Shown one piece after another: positions 4,232-33,505 of a DNA stretch of 64,000 nt. The notes below the pieces were generated by a model, which worked only from the letters and a program-made list of their open reading frames with translations, was not told the origin of the DNA and searched no databases. Every line of letters starts with the position of its first letter. Position 1 is the first letter of the stretch. This stretch comes from Methanoregulaceae archaeon (lineage in GTDB: Bacteria; Armatimonadota; Fimbriimonadia; Fimbriimonadales; Fimbriimonadaceae), in contig JADZEW010000008.1 of the NCBI GenBank assembly GCA_020850325.1, forward strand, positions 372,001 through 436,000, read 5' to 3'. A program made the translations under genes and the position numbers.

Positions 4232-5347
4232 GTGGCCAAAGACCTCTACGAAGTATTAGGTGTTCCGCGAGATGCGACGGCTGACGACATCAAGTCGGCC
4301 TATCGTAAGCTCGCGCGTCAACACCATCCGGACGTCAACCCCAACGATCCCACCGCCGAAGACCGGTTCAAGGAAATCGGCGCGGCCTACGAAGTGCTGC
4401 GCGACCCCGAGAAGCGCGCGGCCTACGATCGCTATGGCACCACCGAGGGGAACCCACAAGATCCGTTCTTTGGCGGCGGTGGCGGATTCGGCGATCTGTT
4501 CGACATGTTTTTCGGCGGCGCTGCTGGTGGCGGCGGAAGACGGCGAGGTAGCTCACAACCTGGCGAGGATCTAGAAACTCGGGTTGAAGTCTCGCTGAAG
4601 GAAGTCATTGAAGGGGCCGAGCGGGAGCTGACGTTCTCGCGCTACATGGCCTGCGATGGCTGCGGCGGGACTGGTGCCGAGGGAGGCGCTCAGCCCACAC
4701 AGTGCACCGCCTGCAACGGGCAGGGCTTCGTCATGCGGGTGCAAAACACCTTCCTTGGCCAAGTTCGTACCCAGACCGCTTGTTCGACCTGCAACGGTAC
4801 CGGCCAGGTGATTCAGAATCCCTGCAAGACATGCCGCGGTCGAAGGCTTGTACCGAAGTCGGTGACCGTCACCGTCAAGATTCCCCCCGGCGTCGAGACC
4901 GGTGCCACGATCCAACTCACCGGCCAGGGCCATGAAGGGCTCGGCGGCGGACGTCCGGGTGACCTGTACGTCGGCTTGGTCGTGGATGAGGGCGCAGATT
5001 TTGAGCGCGAAGGCCTCCACCTTCACACGAGTCTGACGGTGAGCTTTGTTCAGGCTTGCTTGGGCGACCGGATCAAAGTGACCGGCGTCGATGGCGAGTA
5101 CGACCTCGATGTTCCTGCGGGATCTCAGCCGGGCGATGTGCTCGTGGTTCGCGGGGCCGGATTGCCTCCGCTTCACGGCGGCCGGCGCGGCGACCTCTTC
5201 TTCCACTTGACGATCGCGGTGCCCAAGAAGCTCAACGATGCGCAGCGACAAGCGATCGCGGACTTTGCCGAAGCCGGGGGCGAGCCGCTCCCCGAGGGAG
5301 CCAAGGGAGGCGGACTGCTGGGCGGCCTGTTCAAGAAGAAGAAATGA
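4232..5347 (+). CDS. dnaJ: chaperone DnaJ (Hsp40)
   Basis: Type I J-protein that delivers substrates to DnaK and stimulates its ATPase. It has an N-terminal J domain with HPD (residues 32-34), a Gly/Phe-rich linker (about 70-105), four zinc-binding repeats ([24 protein letters not shown] and a last, less typical CKTCRGRR) and the C-terminal substrate-binding domain. GTG 4232 gives the family-typical start [10 protein letters not shown] but lies 12 nt from the AAGGAGG site; TTG 4223 lies only 3 nt from it, so the start is uncertain by three codons. dnaK and grpE are not nearby. Confidence 0.95.
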
Positions 5348-28598: not shown

Positions 28599-29348
28599 AT
28601 GCCGTTGATCAAGTCTGCGGCTCAAGTGGAGCTGATGCGGGAGTCCGGACGGATCGTCGCGAAAACGCTGCGGCTCGTCTCCGACAAGATCGCCCCCGGA
28701 GTCACGCCGGTGGAGCTCGACGAGTACGCGCACGAGTTGATTCGCGCTGAGGGTGGAGTGCCGAGCTTCTTGGGCTACCGGGGTTACCCCCGGGCGACCT
28801 GCATCTCGGTGAATGAGGTCGTTGTTCACGGCATTCCGAATACAACGCCCCTCGAGAAGGGCGACATCATCACGCTTGACTTTGGCGTTGTGAAGGATGG
28901 CTGGCACGCCGACAGCGCCTGGACCTACGCGGTGGGCGATATCAAGGATGAGGCACGACGCCTGATGAACGTGACCCGGGAGTCTTTGAATCAGGGCATC
29001 GCAAAGGCGCGGCCGGGGAACACGATCGGCGATATCGGAGCGGCGGTTCAGACTTACGTCGAGCGCAACGGCTACAACGTGGTGCGCGACCTGGTCGGGC
29101 ACGGCATCGGCGAGAAGCTCCACGACGAGCCGCACAACATTCCCATGTACGGCAAGCCCGGCAAAGGCATGAAGTTGCTGGCGGGAATGACGATGTGCAT
29201 CGAGCCGATGGTGAACGCGGGCACTTGGAAGGTCAACCAGCTCGACGACGAGTGGACGATCGTGACCGCCGACGGACGCCTGGCTGCGCACTACGAGCAC
29301 ACGATCCACATCACCCCAAGTGGGGCCGAGATTCTCACGAAAGAATAG
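28599..29348 (+). CDS. map: methionine aminopeptidase, type I
   Basis: 249 residues; removes initiator Met from nascent proteins. Metal ligands are seen in LDFGVVKDGWHAD (two Asp), VGHGIGEKLHDEP (His), GMTMCIEPM (Glu) and AHYEHTIHI (Glu region). It begins 2 nt after the adk stop. The usual next genes (infA, rpmJ, rpsM, rpsK, rpsD, rpoA, rplQ) do not follow; a structured non-coding unit does. Confidence 0.97.
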   Translation: MPLIKSAAQVELMRESGRIVAKTLRLVSDKIAPGVTPVELDEYAHELIRAEGGVPSFLGYRGYPRATCISVNEVVVHGIPNTTPLEKGDIITLDFGVVKDGWHADSAWTYAVGDIKDEARRLMNVTRESLNQGIAKARPGNTIGDIGAAVQTYVERNGYNVVRDLVGHGIGEKLHDEPHNIPMYGKPGKGMKLLAGMTMCIEPMVNAGTWKVNQLDDEWTIVTADGRLAAHYEHTIHITPSGAEILTKE

Positions 29349-29496
29349 TTTCGGCTCGGTTTGTCGCGGTTTGGCTCGGTCGTCTCACAGACTGGAGGAG
29401 GGGTCAGACCGAGAGTCGAAGTGTCGTCCCACTAGCGAATCTCCATCGCCGTCCGAGCACATTTTGCCGGTTGTGGAAAACTTCCTTGAATTCCCG
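29349..29496. other. non-coding stretch between map and the ncRNA promoter
   Basis: No convincing gene. It begins with GGCTCGG-type short repeats (GGCTCGGTTTG near 29353, similar to sequence near 56466) and could form a weak imperfect hairpin CGGTC...GACCG. No T-tract terminator for map was found here. Confidence 0.4.
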
Positions 29497-29525
29497 TTGC
29501 ATTGCGCCAGTGGATCGCGTATCAT
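29497..29525 (+). promoter_or_regulatory. strong sigma-70-type promoter of the ncRNA unit
   Basis: -35 TTGCAT (29497-29502), a 17-nt spacer and -10 TATCAT (29520-29525). The predicted transcription start is about A29532. One of the best-matched -35/-10 pairs in the window; no ORF begins just downstream. Confidence 0.7.
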
Positions 29526-29531
29526 AACTAC

Positions 29532-29868
29532 AGAGACGACGGTGGTGGAGGACCACCGCTCCGGAAACGGAGACTGAAGACGTTTATCCCTTCAGACGAA
29601 TCTATTACCGTAGAAATCTTCGGAGACGCCGAAGGTACCCGAAAGGGTCGGATTGAGGTTGAGTAGTCCGGTAACCGGTAATGAGCTAGAACGAGGTCGC
29701 GACCTCGCGGGGATCCTTGGACCAGAGTCCCGTGAGCGTAGCGCCGGAGAGCCAAGTGTGTCTCCGGAATGCAACGACCCCGTTTGATGCTCGAGCGGCC
29801 TAGCCGCTTACGTGAGCAATCGCGTATTGGGCGCGTCACGATTTCGGTCGGCGGCGCGCCCTTTTAGT
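29532..29868 (+). ncRNA. candidate structured non-coding RNA (~335 nt), class not recognised
   Basis: Bounded by a promoter and a terminator, with no plausible ORF or Shine-Dalgarno. Ordered helices: GGTGGT/ACCACC (29541-29557); CTCCG-GAAA-CGGAG (29559-29572); CTGAAG/CTTCAG (29574-29595); a 7-bp helix ATTACCG/CGGTAAT (29604-29610 with 29676-29682) enclosing CTTCGG/CCGAAG (29618-29634), ACCC-GAAA-GGGT (29637-29648) and CGGA/TCCG; CGAGGT-CGCG-ACCTCG (29692-29707); CGGGG/CCCCG (29708-29712 with 29778-29782) enclosing GGAC-CAGA-GTCC and CCGGAGA/TCTCCGG (29744-29767); AGCGGC-CTA-GCCGCT (29794-29808) capped by GCTC/GAGC. Invariant motifs of RNase P RNA, tmRNA, SRP RNA and 5S rRNA were looked for and not found. 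It could instead be a long leader of the downstream AroE-like gene. Confidence 0.7.
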
Positions 29869-29869
29869 T
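29829..29869 (+). terminator. Rho-independent terminator of the ncRNA unit
   Basis: A 7-bp GC stem GGGCGCG/CGCGCCC (29829-29835 with 29855-29861) is followed by TTTTAGTTTT. Its loop contains CGGTCGGC, which is also complementary to GCCGACCG just past the T-tract (29872-29879). Confidence 0.75.
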
Positions 29870-29891
29870 TTGCCGACCGATAATCAGCACT

Positions 29892-30686
29892 ATGAATGCT
29901 GTTAAGCTCGCCGTGATCGGGGATCGGCTCGAGGACTCGCTCCTGCCTGCCGTCCTTCAAGCGGGGCTCGGCAGTCTCGGCATTGTGGGGGCAGTCAAAG
30001 TCGTCGAGGTCCCCGAAGATGAGTTCGAGGGTGCAATCATCGCGATGCAGGATGAGGGATTTGTCGGCGCGGCGATTGCGCCTCCCCACAAAGTGGCCGC
30101 GGCCAGGCTCGCTCATCGATTCTCTACGGTTCGCCACGCGATGGGCCACGCCAGCGTGCTTAAGTTCGAGAACGGCATTTGGGGGCAGAACAACGAGGTT
30201 CCGGCAATCCAGGACCTTGTCCAACACCTAGAACCGGCAACCGCCCTCGTCATGGGGGCCGGAGCGGGCGCTCGGGTCGCGGCTGTTGCCCTCTTGGAGT
30301 CAGGATGGCGGGTGAGGGTCTGGAACAGGAACGGGATGCGCTCTCGTCTACTGCAGACCACCCTGAAGGCGTTCGGCGAGGTGGACGTGTTGCCCAATGC
30401 AAACCCGACCGGTTGTAGTCTCATCATCAACGCGACGACGCTAGGCAAGCGAGCTGGCGAGAAGCCGCCGGTTGACTGGACCTTCATCCGCCGCGATACG
30501 ACGGTCATGGACCTCGTTTATCGGCGCGTCCCGACCGAGCTGTTGCGCGATGCGCAACTACGCGGATTGCCTACGATCGATGGTCGTCAACTGGTCGTTG
30601 AGAAGGCGGCCCTGTCGCTTGAGTGGTGGCTGGGCCAGCCCGTCGATCGGGCGCCAATGAACCTAGCGGCGAGTCTGAACAGGTAG
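29892..30686 (+). CDS. diverged shikimate dehydrogenase (AroE)-family protein
   Basis: 264 residues with the AroE architecture: an N-terminal substrate domain, a dinucleotide fold (MGAGAGARVAAVALL, then VWNRN) and closing motifs LIINATTLG and VMDLVYRRVPTELL. The catalytic Lys is kept in IAPPHK (NVTxPxK in AroE). However, the catalytic Asp of GxNTD is replaced (GQNNE), and the N-terminal SxSP shikimate-hydroxyl motif is missing. It may act on a different substrate or be non-catalytic. GATAAT ends 7 nt before ATG, so it may also have its own leaderless promoter in addition to the upstream unit. Confidence 0.78.
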   Translation: MNAVKLAVIGDRLEDSLLPAVLQAGLGSLGIVGAVKVVEVPEDEFEGAIIAMQDEGFVGAAIAPPHKVAAARLAHRFSTVRHAMGHASVLKFENGIWGQNNEVPAIQDLVQHLEPATALVMGAGAGARVAAVALLESGWRVRVWNRNGMRSRLLQTTLKAFGEVDVLPNANPTGCSLIINATTLGKRAGEKPPVDWTFIRRDTTVMDLVYRRVPTELLRDAQLRGLPTIDGRQLVVEKAALSLEWWLGQPVDRAPMNLAASLNR

Positions 30687-32370: not shown

Positions 32371-33297
32371 GTGCAGCAGCTTCCCATCCTCATCGCGGTC
32401 ATGGGCCCCACGGCCTCGGGTAAGTCGGATCTTGCCGAGGCGATGGCGTTTGTCCTCAAGCTACCACTCATCAATGCGGATGCCTTTCAGGTGTACCGCG
32501 GGCTCGACATCGGCACCGCCAAGCCGATCGACCGGAGCAACTACCACCTAATCGACATCGTCGATCCTTGGGAGGAGTTCGGCGTCGGAGAGTGGATCCG
32601 ACGGGTATCAGACGTGTTGCCGAGGCTCTTTGCCCATGCTGGCGGGGCTATTGTCGTGGGCGGTTCGGGATACTACATTCGTGCACTCTTCGAGGGATAC
32701 CGGGACCTTGCCGACGCCCCTGATCCCCAGCGCCGTGAGGAATTGAATCAGCAAAGCCTCGAAGCTCTTGTCGCCGTGCTTCAAGAACGTGATCCGTCGG
32801 CGGCCGCAAAGGTTGATCTTCAGAACCGTGTCCGAGTGCAGCGGGCCGTCGAGCGTCTGGATGTTCCGAGGCTCGAGTGGTCGATTCCTGCGTGCCGCAA
32901 GGTCAAGTTGGCCCGGCTGCCCAACTTGGAACGCAACCGGAGGAGGATCGAACAGCGGGTGGAGGCAATGGTCCAAGCCGGCTGGCTCGACGAAATTCGC
33001 GATTTGATTTTGAGCGGAGTCCAACGCGAACACCCGGGAATGCGCGCGCACGGGTATCGTGCAATGTGGGACGTGATCCATGGGGAGCGATCGCTCAACG
33101 AAGCGATCGAGGCGACCCAGGTCGAGGTGGCTCAATACGCAAAGCGTCAACGAACGTGGTTGCGTGCCGAGCCTAACCTGATCACGATTTCCGCCGAAGA
33201 CGGGGGAGAAGCCCTCGCGACGGCCCTGGATCTGCTTTGGAGTGAAGATGGGAAAATCAATCAACCTGCAAGACATGTTCTTGAACCAGGTTCGTAA
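32371..33297 (+). CDS. miaA: tRNA dimethylallyltransferase
   Basis: 308 residues; adds dimethylallyl to A37 of tRNAs reading UNN codons. P-loop GPTASGKSDLAEA, INADAFQVYRGLDIGTAKP (DSxQxYxGxxIgTAKP-like, here with Ala-Phe), and PGMRAHGYRAMWDVIHGE. GTG 32371 follows TAGTCT by 9 nt. Its end overlaps hfq by about 50 nt; the miaA-hfq order is conserved in many bacteria. Confidence 0.95.
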   Translation: MQQLPILIAVMGPTASGKSDLAEAMAFVLKLPLINADAFQVYRGLDIGTAKPIDRSNYHLIDIVDPWEEFGVGEWIRRVSDVLPRLFAHAGGAIVVGGSGYYIRALFEGYRDLADAPDPQRREELNQQSLEALVAVLQERDPSAAAKVDLQNRVRVQRAVERLDVPRLEWSIPACRKVKLARLPNLERNRRRIEQRVEAMVQAGWLDEIRDLILSGVQREHPGMRAHGYRAMWDVIHGERSLNEAIEATQVEVAQYAKRQRTWLRAEPNLITISAEDGGEALATALDLLWSEDGKINQPARHVLEPGS

Positions 33298-33505
33298 GGA
33301 AGGCGTCGGTGTCACGATCTACCTTACGAACTCGGTGCAACTGCGCGGTTTTGTGCGCGGCTTCGATGCCTTTACGCTGCTGTTGGATGCGCCCAACAAG
33401 CCCACGCAGCTGATCTACAAGCACGCGATCGCGAGCATTGTGCCGTCTCGCAGCGTAGGAACCTACAAGTCGCCCCAAGAGATGGCGACCGACAGTGAAG
33501 ACTAG
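33248..33505 (+). CDS. hfq: RNA chaperone Hfq
   Basis: 85-residue Sm-like protein that pairs small RNAs with mRNAs. Sm1 (SINLQDMFLNQVRKEGVGVTIYL, split around residues 4-26) and the Sm2 motif LIYKHAIASIVPSR (YKHAI) are well conserved. ATG 33248 is chosen with GGAG 6 nt upstream; GTG 33242 would add two residues. Embedded between miaA (overlap ~50 nt) and dapF (overlap 11 nt), implying tight coupling. Confidence 0.96.
   Translation: MGKSINLQDMFLNQVRKEGVGVTIYLTNSVQLRGFVRGFDAFTLLLDAPNKPTQLIYKHAIASIVPSRSVGTYKSPQEMATDSED

Follow-up and report, generated by a model that had tools for sequence, protein, structure and literature searches.

A free-standing gene for a covarying, structured RNA in the Fimbriimonadaceae: a new RNA family with a candidate regulatory role

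The stretch of DNA analysed here (the window, 64,000 nucleotides) derives from contig C8 of a 3.52-Mb genome (G000). It contains, flanked by map (28599-29348; Peptidase_M24) and an AroE-like gene (29892-30686; Shikimate_dh_N, both by Pfam), a gene for a structured RNA, on the forward strand like all elements of this gene detailed below. Its predicted transcript of about 340 nt occupies 29532-29871, bounds that are inferred from the promoter and the terminator; the initial annotation had placed an RNA of about 335 nt between the same two genes, and it is indeed there. The promoter comprises a -35 element, TTGCAT (29497-29502), and, after a 17-nt spacer, a -10 element, TATCAT (29520-29525). Both had been noted, and the TTG and the spacing are conserved among relatives, but the description “near-consensus” was overstated, the -35 element matching at only three of six positions; a scan for consensus promoters missed this one. 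The gene ends in a predicted intrinsic terminator, the GC hairpin (29829-29861) and T-rich tract (29862-29871; TTTTAGTTTT) described earlier, and the ATG of the AroE-like gene (29892) follows about 20 nt past this tract. About ten stable hairpins are present, two of them with the reported GAAA loops (29559-29572 and 29637-29648), and the forward strand folds with a minimum free energy of -153.9 kcal/mol (z = -4.96; reverse strand, z = -2.85). Elsewhere in the neighborhood, the AroE-like protein (264 aa) has the shikimate dehydrogenase N-terminal domain as its sole Pfam match, and hfq (33242-33505; PF17209, 5e-27) lies between a miaA-like and a dapF-like ORF.

A DNA search found the RNA gene in the nearest species at 93% identity; in a pairwise alignment with that species, map is 90%, the AroE-like coding sequence 83%, the spacer 66%, and the RNA 92% identical. 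The statement that the region holds no ORF is borne out by the codon-position pattern of substitutions: differences in the antisense ORF number 8/2/7 by codon position, versus 18/12/101 in the adjacent AroE-like coding sequence. That 103-residue antisense ORF has no Pfam match. Coding on either strand was thus rejected, given that antisense substitutions ignore codon position and that forward-strand ORFs are not common to the homologues.

The 5' part of the RNA contains three hairpins with comparative support. H1 (29540-29558; GGTGGT-GGAGG-ACCACC) covaries among six distinct sequences, H2 (29559-29572), which bears the first GAAA loop, shows a compensatory C-G to U-A change between the window and genome G001, and H3 (29574-29595), with the conserved loop WCGNNWNUCC, has changes on both sides in four of six pairs while remaining 100% paired, its covariation score being reached by 0/500 shuffles. 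A long-range helix (ATTACCG, 29604-29610, with CGGTAAT, 29676-29682) that encloses hairpins H4 to H6 is predicted in the two-species consensus fold and is invariant there; H4 (29616-29636) and H5 (29637-29648), the latter carrying the second GAAA loop, come from the fold. Between the RNAs of the window and G001, 27 aligned positions differ, two of them indels. Sixteen differences are in unpaired positions, nine pairs are changed compatibly on one side, and one pair is changed on both; no pair of the shared fold is broken.

The most widely conserved part is a core of about 95 nt (29690-29784), captured in models R1 and R2, in which a closing stem (29690-29699/29775-29784) surrounds hairpin A (29704-29736), a linker, and hairpin B (29744-29767). 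Both-sided changes are found in seven of the nine pairs of hairpin A and in five of the seven stem pairs of hairpin B, and the GTAG of the linker (GTAGCG, 29738-29743) is invariant among 15 aligned members. Over these 15 sequences, 19 of 30 pairs show compensatory changes (10.6 in shuffles; 0/500), 87.5% of cells pair (shuffles 75.4, sd 1.0; 0/500), and the covariation score is 0.397, compared with 0.175 in shuffles (0/500), which do not keep the relatedness of the sequences, and at most 0.130 in slid controls, which do. RNAalifold recovers hairpins A and B from the alignment alone, with A extended via a conserved GC-AC/GU-GC. The conservation of helices in relatives anticipated for this RNA is therefore evident from compensatory changes in the core, H1, and H3. 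A second proposed long-range helix, CGGGG/CCCCG, did not survive: in 15 homologues, its two strands are able to pair in only 25% of cells, a figure no higher than that of slid controls, and the same bases sit in two other helices, both of which covary. The loops of hairpins A (CTTGG, 29716-29720) and B (CCAAG, 29752-29756) are, as CUUGG and CCAAG in the RNA, complementary in nearly all members, with 94.6% of cells pairing; a single G-C to G-U change is seen, and the alignment is shifted in two members. These loops can kiss in a predicted pseudoknot, which covariation, the loops being near-invariant, neither proves nor disproves.

Upstream of the promoter, exactly 16 nt before the -35 element, is the box GTGGAAAA (29473-29480), the right half of an inverted repeat TTWTCCAC-N8-GTGGAWAA whose left half-site is degenerate in the window species. 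GTGGAWAA or a near variant is found at exactly this distance in 23/23 aligned promoters, including those of the “type II” RNAs described below, and TTWTCCAC lies about 8 nt further upstream at most of these loci, which creates the inverted repeat. In the -35 element, TT is present in 23/23 loci and G in 21/23, and the position of the -10 element is conserved. Fifteen of the 23 promoters belong to loci that were chosen by the core, and the conservation of the box among them is therefore unbiased; the other eight were found via the box or beside loci so found. A search of 113 genomes of the class for box, spacing, TTG, and TANNNT returned mostly RNA loci (three matches in the reversed control), as did a search of 291 genomes of the phylum for inverted repeat, spacing, and TTG (no matches in the reversed control). 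By this measure, the promoter box appears nearly specific to the RNA loci. These searches also uncovered G013, G017, and promoter-sharing RNAs in G104, G105, and G116.

The half-sites resemble DnaA boxes (TTWTNCACA). The dnaA regions of the genomes checked have at most one such box each and no cluster, and in G042 the RNA lies apart from the GC-skew minimum, the sampled skew placing the origin about 0.3 Mb away; DnaA control of the RNA promoter is not supported. As a separate observation, no cluster of TTATNCACA boxes is present at dnaA in several Fimbriimonadaceae genomes (L129, L131, L133-L136). The sampled GC-skew minimum of G042 is about 0.85-1.0 Mb from dnaA, and thus the origin in that genome may not be at dnaA.

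Homologues exist in at least 16 Fimbriimonadaceae genomes, at 17 loci in at least six genera. A DNA search of 101 relatives recovered the gene in full from the nearest species and a stretch of 58-81 bases from five more genomes; alignment of this stretch gave the 97-column core (the closing stem and both hairpins with their linker). Model R1 detected the core in at least 15 of 85 genomes of the family (16 loci), and model R2, built from 15 sequences, in the same 15 genomes, at least 15 of 113 in the class; with 38-50 of hundreds of first-look candidates scored per genome, divergent copies can be missed by such scans. One divergent homologue, in G013, scored 34.6 bits with filters off. Most genomes of the family either lack the RNA or have a form that escapes recognition (15/85 positive by model), and the core is absent from the syntenic sites in other members of genus g19 (L063-L069). 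A 5.23-Mb single-contig genome (G101) is among those that carry the RNA. A pattern search of 291 genomes across the phylum contributed just a handful of further, chance-like matches, fewer than its reversed control, and an exact-pattern scan of one genome per GTDB species returned nine Armatimonadota records plus three that we judged to be chance: a Planctomycete (L048; 17.6 bits, stems broken), and a Gammaproteobacterium (L054) and Aquitalea (L055), neither of which matches the model. The pattern had no match in viral, phage, or plasmid collections, and on this basis a mobile or phage origin was rejected.

Among the members, predicted lengths range from the 340 nt of the window to 516 nt, and the RNAs vary in their 3' half. 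In several members of genus g19, the core is directly followed by a second module (CUUGGCC ... GGCCGAG-GUAGGG ... GGGUGUACAU), whose weak matches to R2 (13.9 and 13.7 bits) suggest an internal repeat of A-GUAG-B form. Members of genus g18 and G017 have a 3' element in common (AUGCGGACCAGU ... GCAAGAAGUCUAC; E = 2e-5). Genome G012 has two copies, the second of which (L046, contig C2) is divergent and has seven GGA-containing hairpin loops. Synteny is kept only among close relatives. Neighbors named from sequence, not all of them scanned, include an aldo-keto reductase, leuS, a serine/threonine kinase, a CAP-like protein, and citrate synthase, and the downstream genes vary from genus to genus, many of them being convergent, on the opposite strand. 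The unit of promoter, RNA, and terminator is kept at each locus, and nearly all homologues end in a hairpin followed by a T-tract; the one exception without a terminator is G113, where the 3' half of the RNA seems to be truncated by a convergent ORF and no terminator is seen (L041, 6100-6215 and downstream). Comparison at the level of sequence shows, then, a stand-alone, non-coding gene with a covarying fold and a promoter box at a fixed position, and we regard it as almost certain that this free-standing gene and its family are real.

The same promoter also precedes RNAs that lack the core. We term these RNAs, which have repeated hairpin modules, type II, a label that implies no sequence homology to the window RNA. 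They occur as three tandem genes in G104 (L139, 4000-5190), as two in G105 (L140, about 4730-5125), and in G116. Each tandem gene has its own inverted-repeat promoter and terminator and, unlike the window RNA, is made of modules such as GUCUU-[hairpin]-GAAAGGAC and, in G104 and G116, CCUUUAGA-[hairpin]-UCCACAGAUAGGG. The core is likewise absent from a promoter-sharing RNA in G017 (L099/L137) that adjoins a tRNA gene; it and the g18 RNAs have both the 3' element and an internal motif in common. We offer, tentatively, the idea that one dedicated, putative activator site drives kissing-loop-core RNAs in some lineages and repeated-module RNAs in others. The promoter would then be more conserved than the sequence that it serves, and the implied function, whether protein titration or RNA assembly, would tolerate near-complete rewriting of the RNA.

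The RNA was compared with known classes using the covariance models catalogued in Rfam 15. At the gathering cut-off, cmscan of the whole window found one tRNA and nothing else; at E<=5, three meaningless matches and no credible family were returned for 29400-30000, and permissive E-values gave no credible match for the homologues. The RNA had been called unclassified, and it remains so at even this threshold. Likewise upheld is the earlier judgment that it is neither RNase P RNA nor tmRNA: neither RF00010 nor RF00023 matches the locus, ARAGORN finds no tmRNA within the window, and the genome's own genes are on other contigs (RNase P RNA, C26:215792-216107, 241 bits; tmRNA, C16:26684-27040, 168 bits). 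Nor does the 6S RNA model (RF00013) match the locus, and no Rfam model for OLE, ROOL, or GOLLD is matched by the region or its homologues. We found no prior description of this RNA in the open-licence literature. It is previously uncatalogued and constitutes a new family.

What might such an RNA do? Of the three roles initially contemplated, a large regulatory RNA fits best. A new housekeeping RNA is harder to reconcile with the patchy and fast-evolving distribution (15/113 genomes of the class by model), and a long riboswitch-like leader is contradicted by homologues that stand beside unrelated, often convergent genes. We propose, with about an even chance of being right, that this is a new Fimbriimonadaceae family of large structured regulatory RNAs that are activator-controlled, act in trans, and may hold a protein. 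A dimeric activator would bind the inverted repeat, which lies about 28 bp before the -35 element, and switch the RNA on; the center of the repeat, near -64, is at the position of a class-I activator. The folded RNA, stabilized by its terminator, would act in trans and not on its neighbors, and would present its conserved loops to a protein for titration or scaffolding, as RNAs of the CsrB/RsmZ type do. The fixed upstream promoter site, the tandem duplication, and the fast turnover are all expected of a trans-acting, protein-binding RNA, and the multiple copies (a tandem trio in G104, a tandem pair in G105, and two copies in G012) are as in dosage-type regulatory RNAs. Taken by itself, regulation in trans through protein binding is plausible, if a little short of an even prospect.

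If the ligand were CsrA, the RNA would be a sponge that titrates this protein with GGA hairpin loops. All 28 genomes tested encode csrA, but csrA also occurs where the RNA was not found, so the co-occurrence is uninformative. The presence of several copies and of an inverted repeat upstream is reminiscent of rsmX/Y/Z, and GGA is in the loops of three of 11 hairpins in the window (0.7 in shuffles) and seven of 12 in the second G012 copy. GGA is, however, conserved at no one loop, its counts range from 0 to 7 in relatives, and it is rare or absent in the loops of type II RNAs and G013. Because the enrichment in the window is mild and the type II RNAs are near or below chance, we consider a strict CsrA sponge quite improbable; the GGA-loop counts indicate no known protein ligand. 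A structure built of RNA only, in which CUUGG and CCAAG kiss between molecules to form dimers or cages like OLE, ROOL, and GOLLD, is unlikely for other reasons. Kissing loops do hold ROOL and GOLLD together (PMC12286853), and the present family combines invariant complementary loops with large size, GNRA and UUCG loops, and, in g19, the apparent second A-GUAG-B module. The loop pairing fits equally well within one molecule, though, the RNA is shorter than those classes, most loci have no phage or tRNA-island context, and the viral, phage, and plasmid collections gave no match.

The location of hfq 3.4 kb from the RNA, together with conserved loops such as WCGNNWNUCC that could serve as exposed seeds, would suit a base-pairing sRNA that uses Hfq. 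Against this stand the large, compact, covarying fold, the lack of any conserved single-stranded seed beside the terminator, and the fact that proximity to hfq is not common to the homologues elsewhere; we regard the idea as decidedly doubtful. A 6S-like regulator of RNA polymerase that has replaced 6S RNA is very unlikely, as the fold offers no single long hairpin interrupted by a central bubble. It is true that RF00013 finds no 6S RNA in the 28 Fimbriimonadaceae genomes tested, but the same model misses nine of 14 control genomes, which makes this absence weak evidence. Scarcely credible is a cis-acting leader or riboswitch of the AroE-like gene, to which the nearness of that gene's ATG might point. 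The downstream gene differs in most homologues and is often on the opposite strand, and a promoter-to-terminator unit is kept at each locus.

Large, structured RNAs that are predicted to be independently transcribed, have clear covariation, and yet appear in no catalogue are rare, and the phylum concerned here, the Armatimonadota, has received little study. The fixed upstream inverted repeat provides a handle for finding the regulator of the RNA. If RNA sequences have truly been exchanged under one promoter, the family would constitute a natural experiment in the evolution of regulatory RNAs.

Several known systems invite comparison. RNase P RNA (RF00010) and tmRNA (RF00023) are of comparable length and complexity, yet both are encoded elsewhere in this genome and neither matches here. 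6S RNA (RF00013) is likewise a stand-alone structured regulatory RNA; the window RNA lacks its single bulged hairpin and does not match it. OLE, ROOL, and GOLLD (PMC12286853) are similarly large orphan bacterial RNAs with a conserved core and complementary loops able to kiss, whereas the present family is shorter (340-520 nt), chromosomal, and, as far as searched, confined to the Fimbriimonadaceae. CsrB/CsrC and RsmX/Y/Z (with the GacA site; PMC2375449) are also free-standing multi-hairpin genes; they too have a palindrome ahead of the promoter, occur in multiple and tandem copies, and turn over rapidly in sequence. From these, the family described herein is set apart by a different palindrome, by having no conserved array of GGA loops, and by its covarying core with complementary loops.
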